Assembly: GCF_028714775.1 (NCBI RefSeq)
Contig: NZ_JAQTLS010000007.1
Location: 62,001 to 126,000 of the forward strand
DNA: 64,000 nucleotides
From: Thiothrix sp.
GTDB taxonomy: Bacteria; Pseudomonadota; Gammaproteobacteria; Thiotrichales; Thiotrichaceae
Direction: 5' to 3'
Below the pieces are notes generated by a model, which saw nothing but the letters and a program-made list of their open reading frames with translations, was not told the origin of the DNA and did not search any database. The stretch's first letter is position 1; each line of letters opens with the position of its first letter. Below, in pieces: positions 14,600-51,976 of this stretch. The position numbers and the translations under genes are program-made.

Positions 14600-15360
14600 A
14601 AGTTGTTTTGTTGGCAGGGGGCTTTGGCACGCGGCTCTCTGAATACACCGAGACCATCCCCAAACCCATGGTCACAGTGGGCGGACGCCCGATTCTGTGG
14701 CACATCATGCGGATCTACGCCCATTTTGGTCATAAGAATTTTTATCTGGCTCTAGGCTACAAGGCCGAGTTGATCAAGGAGTATTTCCTCCATTACCATT
14801 CGCTCAACGCCGACTTTACGGTGGATCTGGCCACTGGTGCTGTTTCACCTCAACAAACCGATGGTGCAGATTGGCGGGTAACACTGGTGCATACTGGTTT
14901 GGAATCGATGACGGGCGGACGAGTTAAGCGTCTGCAATCCTTCATCGGTAATGAACCTTTCATGCTCACCTATGGCGATGGTCTTGCCGATATAGATCTG
15001 GATGCATTGCTCGCATTTCACCATAGTCACGGAAAGATGGTGACGGTAACCGCCGTCCGCCCGAGTGCTCGATTTGGCGAGTTGATGATTGAATCTGATC
15101 AAGTGAGAAGCTTTCGGGAAAAGCCACAGATGGGTCAAGGCTGGATCAACGGTGGCTATTTCGTCATCCAGCCCAAATTCTTCGATCTGATTGCCGGAGA
15201 TAGCACTATTTTGGAACGTGAACCGCTGGAGCAGGTGGCACGAATGGGTGAGTTGATGGCATATCGCCATAAGGGTTTCTGGCAGTGCATGGATACCAAG
15301 CGGGATCGCGATTCACTGGAAGAACTCTGGCAAAGCGGGGAAGCAGCGTGGAAAGTATGA
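14596..15360 (+). CDS. rfbF: Glucose-1-phosphate cytidylyltransferase
   Basis: A 254-residue nucleotidyltransferase that makes CDP-glucose from CTP and glucose-1-phosphate. LAGGFGTRLSEYTETIPKPM is the nucleotide-binding opening, with the RfbF-type SEYTETIPKPMV; TYGDGLADID carries the metal-binding Asp; EKPQMGQGWINGGYFV and GFWQCMDTKRD are typical RfbF motifs. It feeds RfbG. The start at 14596 gives an ATGA overlap with the upstream epimerase gene, and its 3' end overlaps the next aminotransferase by ATGA, a pattern of tight translational coupling across the set. Confidence 0.93.
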   Translation: MKVVLLAGGFGTRLSEYTETIPKPMVTVGGRPILWHIMRIYAHFGHKNFYLALGYKAELIKEYFLHYHSLNADFTVDLATGAVSPQQTDGADWRVTLVHTGLESMTGGRVKRLQSFIGNEPFMLTYGDGLADIDLDALLAFHHSHGKMVTVTAVRPSARFGELMIESDQVRSFREKPQMGQGWINGGYFVIQPKFFDLIAGDSTILEREPLEQVARMGELMAYRHKGFWQCMDTKRDRDSLEELWQSGEAAWKV

Positions 15361-16490
15361 ACCCCGAAAAAATGATTCGCTTATCCAAATCATGTATTGG
15401 CGAAGCCGAGAAGCGTGCTGTAATGGGGGTGCTGGATCGAGAATATCTGGGAATGGGTGTCGAGGTTAAGCAGTTTGAGGAGGATCTGACTACATTTTTT
15501 GGGCGTCCGGCCGTGTGCGTTGTAAATGGGACAGCCGCGTTGCATCTGGCACTGTATGCCTGCGGAATCGGGCAAGGGGATGAGGTATTGGTTCAATCCC
15601 TAACTTATGTCGCCAGTTTTCAGGCGATATCGGCGACCGGAGCAACCCCTGTTGCCTGCGATATTGATCCATCGACTCTTACACTTGACTGGCGCGATGC
15701 TGAAAAGCGCCTGACGTCTAGGACAAAAGCTGTAATGCCCGTGCATTACAGCGGTGGTGTAGGGGCATTGGACGAAATTTATGCCTTTGCTCGCCAACAT
15801 GGATTGCGCGTCATCGAAGACGCCGCACACGCTTTTGGAACTACCTATCAAGGTAAGCGTGTCGGCGGATTTGGTGATGTTGCCTGTTTCAGCTTCGATG
15901 GCATCAAGAACATCACCAGTGGCGAAGGTGGCTGTATTGTCACCGATGACCCTGACGTGCTACGGCGAGTTCAAGATGCACGCTTACTCGGTGTCGAAAA
16001 AGACACAGAAAAACGCTACGCAGACCAGCGGAGTTGGGAATTTGATGTGACTGCGCAAGGTTGGCGTTACCACATGAGTAACATAATGGCAGCGATTGGA
16101 ATTGAACAATTGAAGCACTTTACCGAACTGGCAGCCAAGAGGAAACAACTGGCATGGCGTTACGATAATTTATTAAGCAGCAATCCCAAATTGAAATTAC
16201 TGCAAAATGATTATCAGCAGGTCGTGCCACATATCTATGTGACTCAAATTCAGGGGGCTAATGACCGTGAATCCATTCGGACTCAACTAGCATCAAAGGG
16301 GATCCATACAGGTATTCACTATCAGCCCAACCATGTTCTGAATATGTATCGTCATGCGGCGCATAATACGTCGTTGATTCAAACGGAAATGGTGTTCCCA
16401 CATCTACTGTCCTTGCCGCTGCATCCCGATCTAACTGACCAAATGGTGGAGTTTATATGCACAGAATTAAAGGCTTTGCTTCGTGATTAA
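15357..16490 (+). CDS. DegT/DnrJ/EryC1/StrS sugar aminotransferase
   Basis: A 377-residue PLP enzyme. VNGTAALHLAL is the PLP-phosphate motif, VIEDAAHAFG gives the PLP-contacting Asp, and FSFDGIKNITSGEGG has the Schiff-base Lys near residue 184. Because that lysine is present (it is replaced by His in the 3-dehydratase RfbH), an aminotransferase acting on the CDP-4-keto sugar is more likely than a deoxygenase. The ATG at 15357 is chosen because it overlaps rfbF by ATGA and matches the family N-terminus; the frame stays open further upstream. It overlaps the next gene by 8 bp. Confidence 0.85.
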   Translation: MNPEKMIRLSKSCIGEAEKRAVMGVLDREYLGMGVEVKQFEEDLTTFFGRPAVCVVNGTAALHLALYACGIGQGDEVLVQSLTYVASFQAISATGATPVACDIDPSTLTLDWRDAEKRLTSRTKAVMPVHYSGGVGALDEIYAFARQHGLRVIEDAAHAFGTTYQGKRVGGFGDVACFSFDGIKNITSGEGGCIVTDDPDVLRRVQDARLLGVEKDTEKRYADQRSWEFDVTAQGWRYHMSNIMAAIGIEQLKHFTELAAKRKQLAWRYDNLLSSNPKLKLLQNDYQQVVPHIYVTQIQGANDRESIRTQLASKGIHTGIHYQPNHVLNMYRHAAHNTSLIQTEMVFPHLLSLPLHPDLTDQMVEFICTELKALLRD

Positions 16491-40187: not shown

Positions 40188-41473
40188 CCGATTACTGGAA
40201 TCTTGAAATCCGCCGCGTCGTTTGGGTCATCGGTTCCGGCATTGTGCTGGGGCTGCTCAGTGGTCACTGGGCACTGGCATTGCTGGCGGTTTCCTTCGGC
40301 TATATCGGCTGGACGCTATTCAAGCTGCGCCAGTTACAACGCTGGCTGATCAATGGGCAAAACCCCGACGACATGCCCGACAGCGATGGCGCGTGGGAAC
40401 AGATTGCCTACCTCATCCACAAAGCCCAGCAAAAAAGCGCCAACCGCAAGCAAAAGCAACAGGAATTGCTGATGCGTTTCAACAACATCCTCTCGGTGTT
40501 GCCGGACGCTGCGATCTTGTTGGACGGGGACAACCACATCCAGTGGGCGAACAAATCCGCCGCCGCGCTGTTGGCAATCAATGAAAAAACCGACATCGGG
40601 CAACGCATCGACAATCTGGTGCGCAACCCGTGCCTGCACAATGCCTTGGTGGAAAACAGCGATAAGGAAATCCGCTTCACTGCCCCGCGTAACGACAACC
40701 TTACCCTGCAAGCACGTCTCCTGCCGGTACAAGGTGGCTTACGCTTGCTGAATGTGCGCGACATCAGCCAACGCATCCAATTACAGAAAACCCGTAAAGC
40801 CTTTATTGCCAACGCCTCGCACGAGCTGCGCACCCCGCTGACCGTGCTGATGGGCTATATGGAATTGTTTGAAAGCGACCCCGAATTGCCCATGCATTTG
40901 ATCCCACCGCTCCAGCAATCGCGTGAGCAAGCGGAACGGATGCAGCAAATCATCAACGATATGTTGGCGCTCTCGCGACTGGAAAACCAAGAAATGGCAC
41001 CGCTATCAGGCAAAAAAGTGGTGATGGACGAATTGCTGGAAAGTGCTGCCATGGCCATCCGCGATACGTTCGCCAGCGATACCCACACGCTCGAAACGCA
41101 GATTGAGCCGGGTATTAATATCAATGGCATAGAAAAAGACATCGCCAGCGTCGTCACCAACTTACTGGCAAACGCCGTCAGGCACACCCCGCCGGGTACG
41201 CATATCCGGCTAGTGTGGAAACGCAAAAAATCCGGTCACGCCTGCCTTTACATCGAAGACGACGGCCCCGGCATCCCCAAAGCGCATATCCCGCACCTGA
41301 CCGAACGTTTTTACCGCGTCGATAACGGGCGTGCGCGTGAAAGTGGCGGCACAGGGCTAGGGCTTGCCATCGTCAAACACGTCATGCAACACCATAACGG
41401 CTACCTGACCATCAAGAGCAAACCGGGGTTCACGTACTTCCAGGCTTGTTTCCCGCCGTTTCGGGTGTTGTAA
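40184..41473 (+). CDS. phoR: Phosphate regulon sensor kinase PhoR
   Basis: A 429-residue histidine kinase. Two membrane segments at residues about 10-45 without a large periplasmic loop, a PAS domain near 95-195, HisKA with FIANASHELRTPLTVLMGYM (phospho-acceptor His near 212), and HATPase with NLLANAVRHTPPG, EDDGPGIP and GGTGLGLAIVKHV. The layout is that of PhoR. Translationally coupled to phoB. A 32-nt hairpin follows 7 bp after its stop. Confidence 0.93.
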   Translation: MTDYWNLEIRRVVWVIGSGIVLGLLSGHWALALLAVSFGYIGWTLFKLRQLQRWLINGQNPDDMPDSDGAWEQIAYLIHKAQQKSANRKQKQQELLMRFNNILSVLPDAAILLDGDNHIQWANKSAAALLAINEKTDIGQRIDNLVRNPCLHNALVENSDKEIRFTAPRNDNLTLQARLLPVQGGLRLLNVRDISQRIQLQKTRKAFIANASHELRTPLTVLMGYMELFESDPELPMHLIPPLQQSREQAERMQQIINDMLALSRLENQEMAPLSGKKVVMDELLESAAMAIRDTFASDTHTLETQIEPGININGIEKDIASVVTNLLANAVRHTPPGTHIRLVWKRKKSGHACLYIEDDGPGIPKAHIPHLTERFYRVDNGRARESGGTGLGLAIVKHVMQHHNGYLTIKSKPGFTYFQACFPPFRVL

Positions 41474-41480
41474 ATCCCCA

Positions 41481-41512
41481 AAGCCCTTATAGGCCACAAT
41501 CTGTAAGGGCTT
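41481..41512 (+). terminator. 32-nt hairpin after phoR; inverted twin at 51910-51941
   Basis: AAGCCCTTA and TAAGGGCTT make a 9-bp stem. No T-run follows on the + strand, so it would be a weak intrinsic terminator. The reverse complement of 51910-51941 matches it at 30 of 32 positions, so the CRISPR-Cas locus is bracketed by inverted copies of one element. Confidence 0.6.
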
Positions 41513-41563
41513 CCCAATACATTGTGATAAAATCGGGCATCTACAGAATCTTGGAATTTGCTG

Positions 41564-44017
41564 ATGCTATCTGCCCTCTTGCAGCGTGATCCCTTTCCTT
41601 GGCAACAACGCCTGTTTGAACAATTTATTACAGGCAAAATCCCTTCAGCTTTGGACTTGCCGACGGGAACAGGCAAAACCTCCGTGATCACCATTTGGCT
41701 TGCGGCATTAGCAACACAAGCATTGCACGGCAAACCAACCCTGCCCCGCCGTCTGGTTTACATCGTTAACCGCCGCACCATCGTTGACCAAGCCACCCGC
41801 GAAACCGAACGCCTGTTAGCACGTTTGCAAGCCCCCGAACTGGCACAAGCACGGACTGCATTGCAAACACTTGCCGCCATTCCCGCCACTGACCCGGTTG
41901 CTGCCAGCACCTTGCGCGGTGAATTGGCGGATAACGGTGAATGGAAAACTGACCCAGCCCGCCCTGCCATTGTGTTAGGCACGGTAGACATGGTGTTGAG
42001 CAAACTGCTTTTCCGGGGTTATGGCGATGGCAAACGCAAACGGGTTATCCATGCGGGCTTGCTGGGGCATGACACCTTGCTGGTACACGATGAATCGCAC
42101 CTTGTTCCCGCTGCCTGTAACACCTTGCGGCATTTGGTTGGCCTAAACCGCAGCCTGCACCTGATCAACCTTTCCGCTACCCAACGGGGCGAATCCAGCG
42201 CACCGTTCCAACTGGATTTGGCAGATTTAGCCCACCCAGTCCTGATGCAACGCACCCAAGCGCATAAACGACTGAACGTATTACCACCTGCAAAAGACGA
42301 AAAATCACGCTTACAAACTGTCGTTGATTGCGCATTACAGCACCGCGATAAGGCTACAACGGTCGTGGTGTTCCTGTACGACATCCGCAGCGTCCAGCAA
42401 GTCTATGTGCAATTGGAAAAGCAGGTCGGCAAAGACAATATCCTGATTTTGGCAGGCAGGTTGCGCGGCTATGAGCGTGACCAATTGGTGAAAACGCCAC
42501 TGTGGCAACGTTTCTCGCCAGAAAGCCAACCTACCGAAACACCCGCACACACGGCTTACCTGATCACCACCTCTGCCGGGGAAGTCGGGGTTGATTTGGA
42601 TGCGGAACATGCCGTGGCGGACTTGGCGACATTGGATTCCATGATCCAGCGTTTCGGGCGGGTGAATCGGCGCGGCGAATCGAAAACCAGCCAAATTGAT
42701 GTGGTTTACAGCGAAAAACAGTTCGGCGACAAATACCGGGGAACGCAATTACAGGCAACCTTGGGCTATTTGAATGCGCTCAATCACGACGCTTCACCTG
42801 CACAACTGGCGCGTTTTGCCAAACCTGCCGAAGCTTTTCCGGCTGAACCTGCCAGCCCTGAACTGGATGCGTGGATAGTGGATGAACTCAGTGCCACATC
42901 CTTGCCTTGCCGTTACCCTGTGCGGGATTTCATCCACGGGTTGGGAGCCGAACAATCCACGATCAACTTGCTGTGGCGCAAAGACCTTGACCGGATGCAA
43001 AGCTGGCAAACGGGTGATTGGTTGGAAGATTACCTTGATCTGTTGCCCATCCATACAGCGGAACAAGTGCATTTGCCCTTGAGTGCTGCCAAAACATTGC
43101 TGGCTGGACTCTTGGAAAAATCCGACAAGCACACGTTGAACCTGTTGGCATTAGCTGATGAAACTCCTGATTGGCTACCCGTACAAGAAGTAACTGCGGC
43201 GCTGGAACATTACCACACCTTAATCTTGCCGTGCGTATTGGGTGGTTTGAACGTCAAAGGGATGCCAGATGAAACCCATAGCGCACCTGTCAGCGATGTG
43301 TTGGAGCAAGCTACCAACCTACGCCGCTACTGGTCAGATGCCAAACCGCCAACGGATGCCGATAATTTTCCACGCCGAGGCCGTATCACTCCGCCATTGG
43401 ATGAAAACAGCGAGACGGAACGGCCTTCGTTGATCATATTGAGCCGGGTTGATTTGAAACAAGATAACGACTTGAGCTACCTGTCGGTCACAATGGGCTT
43501 ACAGGAACATCTCAATCAGGCAGAAAACTTTGCTCGCCGGATTGTGCAGGCATTAGCGTTACCCGATGCGTTGGCAGAAGCCGTGATATTGGCGGCACGC
43601 TGGCATGACAAGGGCAAAGACCGGACTTGCTGGCAACAAGCCATCGGAAATAAAGACCTGCAAACACCATTGGCAAAAACCGGACATGGACGTTATGACC
43701 ATACCCGCGCCCAAGGCTATCGGCATGAATTCAGTTCGCTGCTGGATGCACTGGGCGATGAAACCATCCAACAACACCCTTTGCGTGAACTGATCCTGCA
43801 TTTGATCGTGTCGCATCACGGCTGGGGAAGGCCGCACGTCCCGGAACGCGGTTGGGACAGACCCAAAGGCTACCGCACCAACCAGCAAGCCGCGCTGGAC
43901 GTGATGAACCGCTTTGACCGCTGCCAACAAGATTACGGCTGGTGGCAACTGGCATGGCTGGAAGCTTTGCTGGGTGCTGCGGATGTATTGGCCTCCATTG
44001 GGGAGAAAAAGCCATGA
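41564..44017 (+). CDS. cas3: Cas3 helicase-nuclease, type I-G (I-U) form
   Basis: An 817-residue effector nuclease with helicase first and HD domain last, the order typical of type I-G. Walker A is DLPTGTGKTS (residues about 31-40), the DEAH-type box reads HDESHL, motif III LSATQ, and motif VI QRFGRVNRRG. The C-terminal HD nuclease begins at AARWHDKGKD near residue 678, with VSHHGWGR as a later metal-ligand candidate. It unwinds and degrades DNA marked by Cascade. The ATG at 41564 is the first reasonable start. It overlaps the next gene by ATGA. Confidence 0.93.
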   Translation: MLSALLQRDPFPWQQRLFEQFITGKIPSALDLPTGTGKTSVITIWLAALATQALHGKPTLPRRLVYIVNRRTIVDQATRETERLLARLQAPELAQARTALQTLAAIPATDPVAASTLRGELADNGEWKTDPARPAIVLGTVDMVLSKLLFRGYGDGKRKRVIHAGLLGHDTLLVHDESHLVPAACNTLRHLVGLNRSLHLINLSATQRGESSAPFQLDLADLAHPVLMQRTQAHKRLNVLPPAKDEKSRLQTVVDCALQHRDKATTVVVFLYDIRSVQQVYVQLEKQVGKDNILILAGRLRGYERDQLVKTPLWQRFSPESQPTETPAHTAYLITTSAGEVGVDLDAEHAVADLATLDSMIQRFGRVNRRGESKTSQIDVVYSEKQFGDKYRGTQLQATLGYLNALNHDASPAQLARFAKPAEAFPAEPASPELDAWIVDELSATSLPCRYPVRDFIHGLGAEQSTINLLWRKDLDRMQSWQTGDWLEDYLDLLPIHTAEQVHLPLSAAKTLLAGLLEKSDKHTLNLLALADETPDWLPVQEVTAALEHYHTLILPCVLGGLNVKGMPDETHSAPVSDVLEQATNLRRYWSDAKPPTDADNFPRRGRITPPLDENSETERPSLIILSRVDLKQDNDLSYLSVTMGLQEHLNQAENFARRIVQALALPDALAEAVILAARWHDKGKDRTCWQQAIGNKDLQTPLAKTGHGRYDHTRAQGYRHEFSSLLDALGDETIQQHPLRELILHLIVSHHGWGRPHVPERGWDRPKGYRTNQQAALDVMNRFDRCQQDYGWWQLAWLEALLGAADVLASIGEKKP

Positions 44018-44712
44018 TTACACTGGAAAACCTAACCCTGAGTAATCCCGGTGAAGTACTGGCAGTCTGCGGCCTATTCGTGCTGGCAACCCGCCAAGAC
44101 CGCGAGGCAACGCTGGCATGGACAGACAACGGCGCAGTGATCGCAACCGCCCAAACGTTGGAAACGCTATTGCAAACCGTTGTGGATGCCAGCCTCAAAT
44201 TTAACGACAACGGCGTGGGGCAAGAGCCAACCCACATCTCGCTCGGCACTTTCACCCTCGACTGGTGGACAAGCAAAGCGCCGCGCAGCAAGTTTTGGGC
44301 GGGGCGAGTTACCGCTGCAACCTTGATTCCCAAGCTGCATAAAGCCTGTCAGGAATTGGGCATCATCGACTGGCGGGCGTCAGTCGCTTGCGACCAAACC
44401 TACGGCATTGACCCATATGCAGTTTGGACTGCCATTGACCTTGGCTGGTCGCCCAATAACCAAGATGCCAATATTTCTGCACGCCCTTGGATAGAGTTGC
44501 TTGCCATCATCGGCGTGCAAGGTTTTTCCCCCATCATTGCCTCGCGCCAATTGCATTATCACCTGTGGCAAACCCCGCTCACGTTACTGCCCGCCCGTTT
44601 GGTTTTTCGCGGCGCAAGCAAACAGGGTGTGCCAATAGACAATCAGCACTGGCAAGCTACCGTCCTGAAAAAGGGCAAATTCAGTGTTACCCAATTCGCT
44701 AACAAGGAGTAA
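44014..44712 (+). CDS. Type I-G-specific CRISPR protein (Csx14/Csb3-like; GSU0052 position)
   Basis: A 232-residue protein between cas3 and cas7. It has no motif I can name; LTLSNPGEVLAVCGL at the N-terminus, DWWTSKAPRSKFWAG near residue 85 and PWIELLAIIGVQGF near 166 are its most distinctive stretches. In Geobacter-type I-G loci this slot holds a subtype-specific protein called Csx14, Csb3 or a Cas3-extension protein; the naming in memory is not clear-cut. It is far too small for the usual large subunit Csx17/Cas8, yet is the only candidate for that role here. ATGA-coupled to cas3. Confidence 0.6.
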   Translation: MITLENLTLSNPGEVLAVCGLFVLATRQDREATLAWTDNGAVIATAQTLETLLQTVVDASLKFNDNGVGQEPTHISLGTFTLDWWTSKAPRSKFWAGRVTAATLIPKLHKACQELGIIDWRASVACDQTYGIDPYAVWTAIDLGWSPNNQDANISARPWIELLAIIGVQGFSPIIASRQLHYHLWQTPLTLLPARLVFRGASKQGVPIDNQHWQATVLKKGKFSVTQFANKE

Positions 44713-44718
44713 TCCCGC

Positions 44719-45741
44719 ATGTCTTCATACGCTTCCAACCTTTCCCTGCTGCTTGATGGTTCTGTCGCTGCTTTGGTCGTGCAGGAAGGCTTGCGCCCAA
44801 TCAATGGCAATGTGATTTTTCCGCCGACGTATGCGGGTGAGAAATCCGGCGATAAGTCCCGTTACAATTTGAACCCAACCCGCAATGGCACGTTGACCAC
44901 GGTAGACAGCATCCCATCGCAGGCGAACCGGATTGAGCCGCTCTTCATGCAAGCGCCCTACGCCGCGCTCGTTCCGCAAGTCACGGTCAAAGCGGGTACG
45001 CATACCGCCAACTTGTTGGAAATGGGGCATCGCTTGGCAGATGCCGCCATCCGTTTCACCGCGCTTGGTGAAACCATCAACGGGGCGTTTGAACAATATC
45101 GCCTGCACGGCAATGCAATCCCACTGGCGAAACTGGGGCCGACTTCGCTGATTTTTGGTGTTTGGGATTCGCGCAATACCCACACCAAAGTGCCGCGCCT
45201 GTTGAACGCTGAAATCACCGCTACCGATGTTGAGCCGCTGCAAAAACTCAGTCAGTTCACCCCCACGTTTGAATACACCGACATTGGTATCGACGAAAAA
45301 GAGCAAAAGAAAGCCGCCGAAGTCGGGCTGGCGCATGTACCAAATGCCGGATTGGGTGGCGTGGTCGTGCATGGTGCTATCCAACGCACGGTTACGTTGA
45401 ATCTGGCGGGTTTGCGGGCATTCCGGGGTGAAACGGATGAGCAAACCCCAGCCCTGCAAAACTACCTGCTGGGCTTGGCATTGCTGGCAACTTACGCCCC
45501 CGTTGATTACAACCTGCGCCAAGGCTGCCATCTGGTACGCAATCCAGAACAAGCTTGCAACACCCGCCTGATCCGCCAAGACGGCACGGAAGAAACGCTG
45601 GCATTGAGCCTCGACAGTATTTTGGCGTTTGCCAGTCAAGCCGCCGCTGCCTTTGGTGTGGGTGAAAACCGCGAACTGGCATTTGATACCAAACAGGTTA
45701 AGGACGCGATCAAAAAGGCCAGCGGCAAAGGTAATGAGTGA
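44719..45741 (+). CDS. csb1: Cas7 (Csb1/GSU0053 family), Cascade backbone subunit
   Basis: A 340-residue RAMP protein that coats the crRNA as the repeating backbone of the type I-G complex. I recognise it by SLLLDGSVAALVVQEGLRP, the early NRIEPLFM, SLIFGVWDSR and RLRQGCHLV-type (NLRQGCHLV) stretches and by position. It starts 6 bp after the previous gene with AAGGAG upstream. It overlaps csb2 by TGATG. A full-length ORF on the opposite strand here is a shadow. Confidence 0.85.
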   Translation: MSSYASNLSLLLDGSVAALVVQEGLRPINGNVIFPPTYAGEKSGDKSRYNLNPTRNGTLTTVDSIPSQANRIEPLFMQAPYAALVPQVTVKAGTHTANLLEMGHRLADAAIRFTALGETINGAFEQYRLHGNAIPLAKLGPTSLIFGVWDSRNTHTKVPRLLNAEITATDVEPLQKLSQFTPTFEYTDIGIDEKEQKKAAEVGLAHVPNAGLGGVVVHGAIQRTVTLNLAGLRAFRGETDEQTPALQNYLLGLALLATYAPVDYNLRQGCHLVRNPEQACNTRLIRQDGTEETLALSLDSILAFASQAAAAFGVGENRELAFDTKQVKDAIKKASGKGNE

Positions 45742-47234
45742 TGGCATGGCTTAACCTGTATGTCCGTTACCCCGGCATGAGCTATCACGGGGCGGAATGG
45801 CCTCCGTCACCGTTCAAGCTGATGCAAGCATTGATTGCCGGGTTCAATCAGGGGCGCAACCGTTCACAACCCGCAGCGGATTTTGAATCCGCCGTCCGTT
45901 GGCTGGAACAACAAAATCCGCCGTGGATTGATGCGCCCGACAGTGAACAGGGTACAACGCTGACCGTTGCCGTTCCCAATAACGAAGACAATCTGACAAT
46001 GGCAGCATGGGCGGGTGGAAAGCCGGAATCCGCCAACACCAGAGCCAAACGCAATGCGCTGAAAGATGTGCCGCAACGGTTTTTGCAGACCGACAAGCCA
46101 CTCGCTTACCACTGGCAAATTGCCCCAGAAGATGAGGCCATCGCGCAACAAATAGCCACTTACGCCCAACGCATCACCAGTTTGGGGCGCGGCATTGATA
46201 TGGTGGTTGCGTGGGGTAATGTCAGCGCGGAAGACCCGGCGGTTTCCAGCCAGTGCTACTTGCCGCAACACGCGGGTGTCGCTTTGCGCGTCCCTGTTCC
46301 GGGTAGCTTTGACGCTTTGGAAGCGCGGTATCAGGCACAATTCAAGCCGCGTTCTGGCAATGTTTGGGTGGTTGGATTACCGCCGCTGTATTACGGCACT
46401 GCCCGCTACCAACGCGCTGACCAACCCACGGGCAAACCTTACATCGCGTTCCAGTTGCTTGAATTGCACGGCAAAGGTTTCTGGGTACGGGATGCCCGCC
46501 AAGCGGATGAAGTCACGGCGATGATGCGCCATTCACTCAACAAGGCGTTAGAGGGTGAGTTGCAAGACCCGGCAGCGGTCACGCAATGGATGGGGCATGG
46601 TGAAAAAGATGAGCGGCGTTTGCAGGTTTTGCCCTTACCGAGCATTGGGCATGAGCATGTGGATGGCTTGATCCGGCGCGTGATGGTGACAGGTTCGGAT
46701 GCGGGATTGCTGGAACGTTTGGCGTGGATGCTGGAAGGTAGCGAACTGCTCAAAGATGGTAAACCGATGGCGCGGCTGGTGCGGGTATTTGGCGATGATA
46801 CGGTGGTCGGGCTATACACGGGTGAATTTCATGCCCAGCGCAAACTGCCAACTTGCGAATGGGTCAGCGTTACCCCCGTTGTCATGCCGGGTTTTGACCA
46901 TCACGGCAAACGTACCGCCAAACTGATGCGCGAAGCCTTAAAGCAGGCGGGTTTGCCTGAACCGCTGGAAATGGAGGTATCCGCCGCACCTTATCAGCGC
47001 CACGGGTATCGGGCGGGCAGCTATGCAACACCGGATTACTTGCGGCAATATCCGCAGTACCATGTACGCATCCGTTGGGCAGAGCCGCAAAAAGGCGCAT
47101 TGGCAATCGGCGCGGGGCGCTTCCGAGGCATGGGGTTATTGTATCCGCCCATCATGGCGCGAACGTCAAGCGATAGGCACAATGAGGCAGGGTTCGCACC
47201 AAACAATAACCCATTGGTTAATTATGACTTTTAA
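45741..47234 (+). CDS. csb2: Cas5-Cas6 fusion (Csb2/GSU0054 family)
   Basis: A 497-residue protein defining the I-G (I-U) subtype. The N-terminal WLNLYVRYPGMSYHGAEWPP is the Cas5-like opening; the C-terminal third (GFDHHGKRTAKLMREAL, then GALAIGAGRFRGMGLLYP with a Gly-rich loop) is Cas6-like, expected to cut the precursor crRNA. It is the last cas gene; the leader and array follow after 112 bp. GTG at 45738 is an alternative start. Confidence 0.88.
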   Translation: MAWLNLYVRYPGMSYHGAEWPPSPFKLMQALIAGFNQGRNRSQPAADFESAVRWLEQQNPPWIDAPDSEQGTTLTVAVPNNEDNLTMAAWAGGKPESANTRAKRNALKDVPQRFLQTDKPLAYHWQIAPEDEAIAQQIATYAQRITSLGRGIDMVVAWGNVSAEDPAVSSQCYLPQHAGVALRVPVPGSFDALEARYQAQFKPRSGNVWVVGLPPLYYGTARYQRADQPTGKPYIAFQLLELHGKGFWVRDARQADEVTAMMRHSLNKALEGELQDPAAVTQWMGHGEKDERRLQVLPLPSIGHEHVDGLIRRVMVTGSDAGLLERLAWMLEGSELLKDGKPMARLVRVFGDDTVVGLYTGEFHAQRKLPTCEWVSVTPVVMPGFDHHGKRTAKLMREALKQAGLPEPLEMEVSAAPYQRHGYRAGSYATPDYLRQYPQYHVRIRWAEPQKGALAIGAGRFRGMGLLYPPIMARTSSDRHNEAGFAPNNNPLVNYDF

Positions 47235-47346
47235 GCAATCCGCAGATACACAGAAAACGATCAGGCAAATAATCGTTGCTGCAACAAAGTGGGTTCGCGC
47301 AAAATCAAGCTGTTCTTCTTTAAAAATAGAGTGCTGGAAAGTAGCT
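47235..47346 (+). promoter_or_regulatory. CRISPR leader
   Basis: The 112 bp between csb2 and the first repeat are AT-rich toward the array (CTTCTTTAAAAATAGAG). The degenerate repeats are at the other end of the array (51.4-51.5 kb), so this is the leader side and transcription runs on the + strand. No promoter box stands out. Confidence 0.65.
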
Positions 47347-47812
47347 GTAATCCCGGAGCGTTGAGTTCCGGTTCTGTTGAAGTCTGCCAAGGTGACGTTT
47401 ATCCGTGAGGTAGTTGCAGTAATCCCGGAGCGTTGAGTTCCGGTTCTGTTGAAGTCCGACGGTCAAGCACTGTCAGGTATTTAATCCCCGTAATCCCGGA
47501 GCGTTGAGTTCCGGTTCTGTTGAAGTAAGCCCATGGGGACAATCATGGATATTTGTTTTGGTAATCCCGGAGCGTTGAGTTCCGGTTCTGTTGAAGTAGT
47601 ATCCATTCCTGATTCCGGTCGATACCAGCGCAGTAATCCCGGAGCGTTGAGTTCCGGTTCTGTTGAAGTTATGACGAATGGGTGTGGGAGCAGCACGTCC
47701 ATCGGTAATCCCGGAGCGTTGAGTTCCGGTTCTGTTGAAGTATCATTTGCTTTTGTGAGCAGGGGGTTTTTCCGGGTAATCCCGGAGCGTTGAGTTCCGG
47801 TTCTGTTGAAGT

Positions 47813-49245
47813 ACCACGCAAGCGGCTGGCGAAATCATCAGCGGTGGTAATCCCGGAGCGTTGAGTTCCGGTTCTGTTGAAGTACCGGCATCGCGGTAGG
47901 GCTATGGCTATCAGCGCAAGTAATCCCGGAGCGTTGAGTTCCGGTTCTGTTGAAGTTTGAGCGCCTACATCGACGTGCGCCAAGGTCGTCGTAATCCCGG
48001 AGCGTTGAGTTCCGGTTCTGTTGAAGTAGGAGAATCATAATGTTACATCTAAACAAAGAAATGTAATCCCGGAGCGTTGAGTTCCGGTTCTGTTGAAGTA
48101 GCGAAGTAGCAGCCAACCCAGTAGGCCATGCTGGTAATCCCGGAGCGTTGAGTTCCGGTTCTGTTGAAGTTACCAAAAGGACATCTATCATGACTTACCA
48201 AGAAAGTAATCCCGGAGCGTTGAGTTCCGGTTCTGTTGAAGTCACACCGCCTCCCGCACCTCATCAAGCGTGGAAAGTAATCCCGGAGCGTTGAGTTCCG
48301 GTTCTGTTGAAGTCGCACCGAAACCACCCGCGCCCACGCCATCGCCTAGTAATCCCGGAGCGTTGAGTTCCGGTTCTGTTGAAGTCGCGCCCTTTGTCGA
48401 TATTCCACGGCAAATAACTTGTAATCCCGGAGCGTTGAGTTCCGGTTCTGTTGAAGTAAACCGCAAACGCGGGACGAAAGCCGACATCGCCGGGTAATCC
48501 CGGAGCGTTGAGTTCCGGTTCTGTTGAAGTAAACGCTGCGTTTCTATTGTATGCCGGTCGTTTGAGTAATCCCGGAGCGTTGAGTTCCGGTTCTGTTGAA
48601 GTAGGAACAATCTCCTTATCATCATCCACCGCAAACGGTAATCCCGGAGCGTTGAGTTCCGGTTCTGTTGAAGTAGCCTGCCAATGTCAATTCACCCGGG
48701 CGTGATTTGTAATCCCGGAGCGTTGAGTTCCGGTTCTGTTGAAGTCGCCGTTTAGTGTAAACGTCGGTGTTCCGCCATCGTAATCCCGGAGCGTTGAGTT
48801 CCGGTTCTGTTGAAGTATCTCCTGCGTGTGTAAAAACTCTTTGAAGGCGGGTAATCCCGGAGCGTTGAGTTCCGGTTCTGTTGAAGTTTGTCCAACCACG
48901 GCTTCCAGTACCCAATAACCCGTAATCCCGGAGCGTTGAGTTCCGGTTCTGTTGAAGTGCCCGTTGCGCCATCGACCGCACCCGCCCACGAGCGTAATCC
49001 CGGAGCGTTGAGTTCCGGTTCTGTTGAAGTTGTCGGGGGTGTGTAATGGCTGAACCAGTAAAGGGTAATCCCGGAGCGTTGAGTTCCGGTTCTGTTGAAG
49101 TGCCCGTTGCGCCATCGACCGCACCCGCCCACGAGCGTAATCCCGGAGCGTTGAGTTCCGGTTCTGTTGAAGTTAACATCTCTATACCTCTGGGATTACA
49201 TCCCCTAAGTAATCCCGGAGCGTTGAGTTCCGGTTCTGTTGAAGT
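47813..49245 (+). repeat. 1433-bp CRISPR block, copy 1 (spacers 7-26)
   Basis: Twenty spacer-repeat units. The same sequence follows immediately at 49246-50678. Every spacer I compared is identical between the copies, and the order is unchanged. Confidence 0.93.
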
Positions 49246-50678
49246 ACCACGCAAGCGGCTGGCGAAATCATCAGCGGTGGTAATCCCGGAGCGTTGAGTT
49301 CCGGTTCTGTTGAAGTACCGGCATCGCGGTAGGGCTATGGCTATCAGCGCAAGTAATCCCGGAGCGTTGAGTTCCGGTTCTGTTGAAGTTTGAGCGCCTA
49401 CATCGACGTGCGCCAAGGTCGTCGTAATCCCGGAGCGTTGAGTTCCGGTTCTGTTGAAGTAGGAGAATCATAATGTTACATCTAAACAAAGAAATGTAAT
49501 CCCGGAGCGTTGAGTTCCGGTTCTGTTGAAGTAGCGAAGTAGCAGCCAACCCAGTAGGCCATGCTGGTAATCCCGGAGCGTTGAGTTCCGGTTCTGTTGA
49601 AGTTACCAAAAGGACATCTATCATGACTTACCAAGAAAGTAATCCCGGAGCGTTGAGTTCCGGTTCTGTTGAAGTCACACCGCCTCCCGCACCTCATCAA
49701 GCGTGGAAAGTAATCCCGGAGCGTTGAGTTCCGGTTCTGTTGAAGTCGCACCGAAACCACCCGCGCCCACGCCATCGCCTAGTAATCCCGGAGCGTTGAG
49801 TTCCGGTTCTGTTGAAGTCGCGCCCTTTGTCGATATTCCACGGCAAATAACTTGTAATCCCGGAGCGTTGAGTTCCGGTTCTGTTGAAGTAAACCGCAAA
49901 CGCGGGACGAAAGCCGACATCGCCGGGTAATCCCGGAGCGTTGAGTTCCGGTTCTGTTGAAGTAAACGCTGCGTTTCTATTGTATGCCGGTCGTTTGAGT
50001 AATCCCGGAGCGTTGAGTTCCGGTTCTGTTGAAGTAGGAACAATCTCCTTATCATCATCCACCGCAAACGGTAATCCCGGAGCGTTGAGTTCCGGTTCTG
50101 TTGAAGTAGCCTGCCAATGTCAATTCACCCGGGCGTGATTTGTAATCCCGGAGCGTTGAGTTCCGGTTCTGTTGAAGTCGCCGTTTAGTGTAAACGTCGG
50201 TGTTCCGCCATCGTAATCCCGGAGCGTTGAGTTCCGGTTCTGTTGAAGTATCTCCTGCGTGTGTAAAAACTCTTTGAAGGCGGGTAATCCCGGAGCGTTG
50301 AGTTCCGGTTCTGTTGAAGTTTGTCCAACCACGGCTTCCAGTACCCAATAACCCGTAATCCCGGAGCGTTGAGTTCCGGTTCTGTTGAAGTGCCCGTTGC
50401 GCCATCGACCGCACCCGCCCACGAGCGTAATCCCGGAGCGTTGAGTTCCGGTTCTGTTGAAGTTGTCGGGGGTGTGTAATGGCTGAACCAGTAAAGGGTA
50501 ATCCCGGAGCGTTGAGTTCCGGTTCTGTTGAAGTGCCCGTTGCGCCATCGACCGCACCCGCCCACGAGCGTAATCCCGGAGCGTTGAGTTCCGGTTCTGT
50601 TGAAGTTAACATCTCTATACCTCTGGGATTACATCCCCTAAGTAATCCCGGAGCGTTGAGTTCCGGTTCTGTTGAAGT
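49246..50678 (+). repeat. 1433-bp CRISPR block, copy 2 (spacers 27-46)
   Basis: Exact tandem copy of 47813-49245, offset 1433 bp. After it the array continues with twelve further, unique spacers (47-58). Confidence 0.93.
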
Positions 50679-51535
50679 ACTTTCTTGGAATCCAGCGTGG
50701 ATGTTGATGACCACGTAATCCCGGAGCGTTGAGTTCCGGTTCTGTTGAAGTTGCCAATCTGCACGGGTAACTGTTTAAAATGTATCGTAATCCCGGAGCG
50801 TTGAGTTCCGGTTCTGTTGAAGTAGTCGCTCTCGTTGACGAGATTGCTGAGCGCGTCATGGTAATCCCGGAGCGTTGAGTTCCGGTTCTGTTGAAGTGCC
50901 AGTCTGATGCGCGTTTCGTGCATCCAGCATTGTAATCCCGGAGCGTTGAGTTCCGGTTCTGTTGAAGTCGCACCCATAACCCTTACTTACCCCAATAGTA
51001 ACCGTAATCCCGGAGCGTTGAGTTCCGGTTCTGTTGAAGTAGTGCAACCGCCGCCCGCTGTGCATCGCTCAAATGTAATCCCGGAGCGTTGAGTTCCGGT
51101 TCTGTTGAAGTCGGTTGGGACGGTGATCCAGTCGGCGGCGATTGCGTAATCCCGGAGCGTTGAGTTCCGGTTCTGTTGAAGTCGCAACGTCACCAAATAC
51201 GCCCGCGTCTCACTCGGTAATCCCGGAGCGTTGAGTTCCGGTTCTGTTGAAGTAGCGCATCCCAATCCTGCTTGCACGCTGCCTGCCAAGTAATCCCGGA
51301 GCGTTGAGTTCCGGTTCTGTTGAAGTGGCATAGCCGCCCACGCAGTCGCCACCGATCTAAGTAATCCCGGAGCGTTGAGTTCCGGTTCTGTTGAAGCACG
51401 CGGATCGCGTCGAAAACGGATGCAGATTGCAGTAATCCCGGAGCGTTGAGTTCCGGTTCTGTTGAAGCCAAGATGCAGACGTTGCCATTCGCCGCACCCA
51501 GTGTAATCCCGGAGCGGTGAGTTCCGGTTCTGTTG

Positions 51536-51802
51536 TTATGGCATGACCCTTTCGTTGGTGATTTCGGTTACAAAGTCACGCCATAGTTGTTCTGGATGCC
51601 TTCTTTCTTGGATTGTTTGCCCGTGGTGCTTTCTGGTATTGCCACACATCCAGCAGGAACATGGGGTTGGCGTATCAATGACTTTTCCGCTGCTGCGCTG
51701 TGATATTGACGCACCACCACGCCAGTAGCCGGATCGGTTCCGTTTCAGCCGGGATGCGTGATGCCTACGGATAGCGCGGTTCTCAGTGAGCATTCTTTTC
51801 AT
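51536..51802 (-). CDS. Small conserved CxxC protein of unknown function
   Basis: An 88-residue basic protein with SCWMCGN near residue 56 and many Arg/Lys/His. I recall short proteins with a CSC-x-MCGN-R motif as widespread but uncharacterised in proteobacteria. The frame is open 14 codons upstream; the ATG at 51802 gives the start MKRMLTENRA. Its stop codon lies inside the degenerate final CRISPR repeat, so array and gene meet tail to tail. A nucleic-acid or metal-binding role is only a guess. Confidence 0.6.
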   Translation of the reverse strand: MKRMLTENRAIRRHHASRLKRNRSGYWRGGASISQRSSGKVIDTPTPCSCWMCGNTRKHHGQTIQERRHPEQLWRDFVTEITNERVMP

Positions 51803-51909
51803 GGTAACGGTATCCCGCAAGATGGTCTGTATACATAACGCCAAAAATACCGTTTTTGGTGTCGGCTGTCACCGTTTTACCGTCCGTTGTGAGTAGCCCA
51901 AACGCGAAA

Positions 51910-51941: not shown

Positions 51942-51976
51942 CTCGGTGTTTCACGGAATGCCATGAAACAGAATAA

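Follow-up and report, generated by a model that had tools for sequence, protein, structure and literature searches.

An exact 20-spacer block, probably duplicated in tandem, in a type I-G CRISPR array of Thiothrix sp.

A type I-G CRISPR array in the genome of Thiothrix sp. carries the same block of 20 spacers twice in succession, without a single difference between the copies. The array lies in a stretch of 64,000 nucleotides (hereafter the window, to which all coordinates refer unless another locus is named) of contig NZ_JAQTLS010000007.1, positions 62,001–126,000, from assembly GCF_028714775.1. It is quite probable that 20 spacer-repeat units have genuinely been duplicated in tandem, by unequal exchange or replication misalignment.

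Self-comparison of the window revealed a single exact direct repeat, 1472 bp long (47776–49247 versus 49209–50680), with a spacing of 1433 bp and no mismatches; the calculated probability of a chance match of this length is about 10^-877. Parsing of the array into repeats and spacers agreed with this result to the base: spacers 27–46 are spacers 7–26 in identical order, with zero differences. The exact match corresponds to the 1433 bp period plus 39 bp, namely the shared flanking 37 bp repeat and the first two bases common to spacers 27 and 47. Both ends of the block are in register with the CRISPR repeat, so that the same spacers are found in the same order between repeat-aligned ends, as characterizes a tandem duplication of a spacer block. 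The original prediction of an exact 1433 bp tandem duplication of 20 spacers without any difference, comprising one third of the array (20/58 spacers), is thus borne out, including its bounds (47813 is the first base of spacer 7, and 50678 the last base of repeat 47).

The array is built of 37 bp repeats, GTAATCCCGGAGCGTTGAGTTCCGGTTCTGTTGAAGT, and spacers of 34–37 nt (Table 1). Repeats 1–56 are all identical. Since the degenerate repeats are 57–59, the leader is assigned to the side adjoining csb2 and the trailer to the right. Parsing also revealed a smaller duplicate that had escaped the earlier analysis: spacer 23 is identical to spacer 25, and the same pair recurs as spacers 43 and 45 (designated Q-R-Q). 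The block contains 19 distinct spacers and the whole array 37 of 58. Being present in both copies, Q-R-Q predates the duplication of the block, barring its transfer from one copy to the other by a later exchange.

Table 1. Features of the type I-G locus and its CRISPR array (window coordinates).
Feature	Position	Strand	Description	Basis
cas3g helicase/nuclease, type I-G	41558..44017	+	helicase domains	TIGR02621 695 bits, cut-off 400
csb3/cas8g2-like subunit (GSU0052 family, weak)	43942..44712	+	between cas3 and csb1 as in locus L181	TIGR04106 51.7 bits, cut-off 125
csb1/cas7g	44719..45741	+		TIGR02570 110 bits, cut-off 38
csb2 (cas5-cas6 type, GSU0054)	45738..47234	+		TIGR02165 234 bits, cut-off 45
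Putative leader side, csb2 stop to repeat 1	47235..47346	+		degenerate repeats at opposite end
CRISPR array	47347..51539	+	59 repeats of 37 bp, 58 spacers, 37 distinct	array parsing
Block copy 1, repeats 7-26 and spacers 7-26	47776..49208	+	1433 bp	self-comparison, array parsing
Nested Q-R-Q, copy 1	48922..49173	+	spacer 23 = 25 around 24	array parsing
Novel junction	49174..49279	+	spacer 26 - repeat 27 - spacer 27 (= 7)	array parsing
Block copy 2, repeats 27-46 and spacers 27-46	49209..50641	+	1433 bp, identical to copy 1	self-comparison, array parsing
Nested Q-R-Q, copy 2	50355..50606	+	spacers 43 = 45 around 44	array parsing
Trailer end	51361..51539	+	repeats 57 and 58 with 1 change each, repeat 59 with 4 changes	array parsing

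Judging by profile matches, the effector operon upstream of the array is of type I-G: the curated cut-offs are exceeded by Cas3g, Csb1/Cas7g and Csb2, and a putative Cas8-type subunit (Csb3/Cas8g2), whose match lies below the cut-off, occupies the right position. An adaptation module (a Cas4-Cas1 fusion and Cas2) usually lies beside the I-G operon; assignment to the subtype is allowed without it. No cas1, cas2 or cas4 was found beside the I-G locus (41473–47346). In the whole genome only two Cas1 genes were revealed, both on other contigs and adjoining genes and arrays that on inspection resemble type I-C and type III systems. The window array may rely on Cas1 supplied in trans, or it may no longer acquire spacers. 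The type I-G locus L181 of genome G254 has the same gene order, cas3-csb3-csb1-csb2; unlike the window, it contains beside cas3 an open reading frame (orf) of 592 aa, the size of a Cas4-Cas1 fusion, and another of 88 aa, the size of Cas2, both judged by size and place only. A further orf, of 1003 aa in locus L088, holds a Cas1 match (G002:C1:3085011-3085826) and is possibly a Cas1 fusion.

The locus is preceded by phoR, which is separated from cas3 by 84 bp; some 440 bp lie between the end of the array and a tRNA gene followed by purM. Between the array end and the tRNA gene there is a 102-aa orf with a CSCWMCGN motif on the minus strand (51536–51844). No relative of Csb2 was detected in 15 further genomes of the same genus or among the remainder of the 57 that were searched, which suggests horizontal gain of the system or its loss elsewhere. 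Similarity to the relatives starts at position 51972, at the tRNA gene before purM. To the left of this tRNA gene, genome G010 contains a different CRISPR system with 28 bp repeats and a weak Cas1 match at about 14634–15596 (L041, 8849–15596), and other relatives contain unrelated genes. The tRNA-purM site appears to be a hotspot where defence loci insert.

The duplication could have arisen as follows. In an earlier step, one spacer within the future block would have been doubled (Q-R-Q), either through a minor rearrangement or because one protospacer was captured on two occasions. Later, two sister arrays would have paired out of register. An exchange between the identical 37 bp sequences of repeats 7 and 27, or a switch of template by the replication fork from one to the other, would then have inserted a second copy of units 7–26, with a 20-unit deletion as the reciprocal product. 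A single exchange predicts a single differing junction, and the duplicated and single-copy forms do differ by exactly one, spacer 26 - repeat - spacer 7, the sole sequence that separates them. Scans of genome contigs for the repeat and for Csb2 found nothing, and no further array sharing the spacers or the repeat, nor a sister strain with a single-copy array, turned up in the searches, which counts against this scheme. The alternatives framed originally, recombination between repeats or an artefact of assembly, proved to be the right pair, and the size of the block is indeed unusual; the accompanying statement that the duplication must be recent cannot be derived from the identity of the copies. 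The absence of differences in 1433 bp bounds the divergence only to less than about 0.2%, which allows a long time, and the 56 non-terminal repeats are identical as well. A young age is better argued from the expectation that a 1.4 kb tandem copy is easily lost by recombination. The six spacers between the leader and the block give no date, since a duplication within the array can occur without involving the leader.

To place the block among other duplications, we used arrays parsed near Cas1 genes in the same genus (57 arrays with 2039 spacers, window included). Repeated spacers were found in 26 of the 57 arrays, mostly as single units (AA, A.A or A..A). Runs of two or three units are repeated as well (e.g., CBDCBD in L073), and larger blocks were revealed in genomes G003 (7 and 11 units) and G002 (ABCD.ABCD) as well as in the window (20 units). 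With the window array excluded, 65 of 1981 spacers are redundant (3.3%), and the same proportion (805/24,090, 3.3%) was obtained with SpacerPlacer (PMC11472070). Redundancy in a class-wide, mostly draft sample is 0.8%, a value that may reflect assembly. An apparent excess of arrays with duplicated spacers in the genus over the class (25/56 versus 4/35; Fisher p 0.0006, window included) was rejected, because the class sample consists mostly of drafts and the genus equals the published 3.3%. Block deletions fit a geometric law with a mean of 2.7 units (PMC11472070); under this law, fitted to deletions, a length of at least 20 units has a calculated probability of about 1.5e-4. The length of the block is thus an outlier, which counts against the duplication, and size is the unusual part of the case. 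As far as a law fitted to deletions can be applied, the size speaks for exchange over a distance and not for local slippage.

Repeated blocks and duplicated "large segments" have been reported in CRISPR arrays, and the relevant passages of a review (PMC8047081) and of a study of Streptococcus agalactiae CRISPR1 (PMC4466440) attribute repeated blocks to recombination or replication misalignment between repeats. As in the window, those blocks are described as contiguous spacer-repeat units repeated in order. The window block differs in its type I-G context and the lack of a neighbouring adaptation module; its size is 20 units (1433 bp), and the passages on duplication in these papers give no block sizes. 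A closer parallel was found in G003, a relative assembled as a single contig, whose type I-E-like array (L109, 4291–8528) reads ABCDCDE / ABCDCDEFGHI / ABCDCDEFGHI / A. It likewise contains exact tandem blocks with a smaller duplicate (CDCD) nested in each copy, but belongs to another CRISPR type, has other spacers and smaller blocks, and implies several successive events. The four-spacer repeat of G002 also comes from a single contig. Thus, the window block is probably an unusually large example of an already known rearrangement of arrays, and duplicated blocks of more than one unit recur in the genus, a point that had escaped the earlier analysis. An adjacent duplicated spacer (18 = 19) was also observed in the I-C-like array of the same genome (L011, 7893–8034).

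A somewhat unlikely alternative, which overlaps with the main explanation, is that the duplication is real while the copy number is other than two or mixed, the tract of units 7–26 varying between cells. The 1472 bp of perfect tandem homology would favour such variation, and for one engineered Legionella array the passage concerned in PMC8047081 cites spontaneous loss of units in about 1 of 1000–2000 cells. Besides, short-read assemblies cannot count past the junction, and no read or insert shorter than 1472 bp can fix the copy number. A third copy would leave no trace in the assembly; the number is presumably two.

It is unlikely that the chromosome contains a single copy and that the second was created in assembly, by passing through a loop two times or by joining overlapping ends that were left unmerged. 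The genome is indeed a draft (4.3 Mb in 70 contigs, the contig in question being 223 kb), 2692 positions of the region fall in repeated 127-mers, the repeat is resolved only by spans longer than 1472 bp, and the few duplicated spacers in the mostly draft class-wide sample suggest that drafts may treat such repeats poorly. However, exact repeats are normally collapsed by assemblers, not invented. A loop requires reads with the junction spacer 26 - repeat - spacer 7, which is absent from a single-copy array at k >= 55, and a blunt overlap error is not expected to finish in register with the 37 bp repeat. An assembler misled by 37 bp repeats could hardly have ordered the remaining array, and the same kind of structure is present in the single-contig relative G003. 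Other repeated sequences gave no verdict on the quality of the assembly: a 16S search returned no match, perhaps through masking, the two copies of tuf are distinguished by 51 differences, and a single transposase search yielded two dissimilar matches.

Independent acquisition of the 20 spacers twice is extremely improbable: the same protospacer does seem to be recaptured occasionally in the genus, but 20 spacers share one order and identical trimming, and the locus has no cas1, cas2 or cas4 of its own. Recapture is suggested by pairs of spacers that share one end and differ in length, as expected from capturing one protospacer twice (spacers 46/47 of L073, 37 and 33 nt; spacers 46/47 of L090, 34 and 30 nt; also 26/31 of L079 and 25/31 of L073). 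Q-R-Q therefore need not have arisen by recombination and may reflect such recapture. In the window and in arrays L087, L090, L091, L094, L095, L104, L107, L108 and L112, single duplicates of the A.A form are about as common as adjacent AA, and intact isolated ABAB is hardly seen. A.A is not the product of a single unequal exchange and is a candidate for repeated capture of one protospacer.

Possible targets of the spacers were searched in several ways. The whole array, searched as one natural sequence, had no match in phages, the block had none in plasmids, and eight 22-mers had none in viral contigs; sequences of the same genus gave only weak matches at noise level. None of these searches found a protospacer for the doubled guides.

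In the preferred reading, that of a true tandem duplication, the second copy would add no specificity and would provide two templates for the same guides, together with a perfect homology of 1472 bp that would allow the array to shrink or grow further. It is quite unlikely, though conceivable, that the array, its own adaptation genes gone, is now remodelled chiefly through recombination of large blocks, and that units 7–26 vary in copy number in the population. For the gain and loss of units by routes other than acquisition, replication misalignment and RecA-dependent exchange are the two candidate mechanisms. A block of 20 units in register, far beyond typical slippage, in a genus that also contains blocks of 7 and 11 units, offers a case on which they can be tested. 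The block further calls for caution, as spacer counts and chronologies can err by one third of an array.
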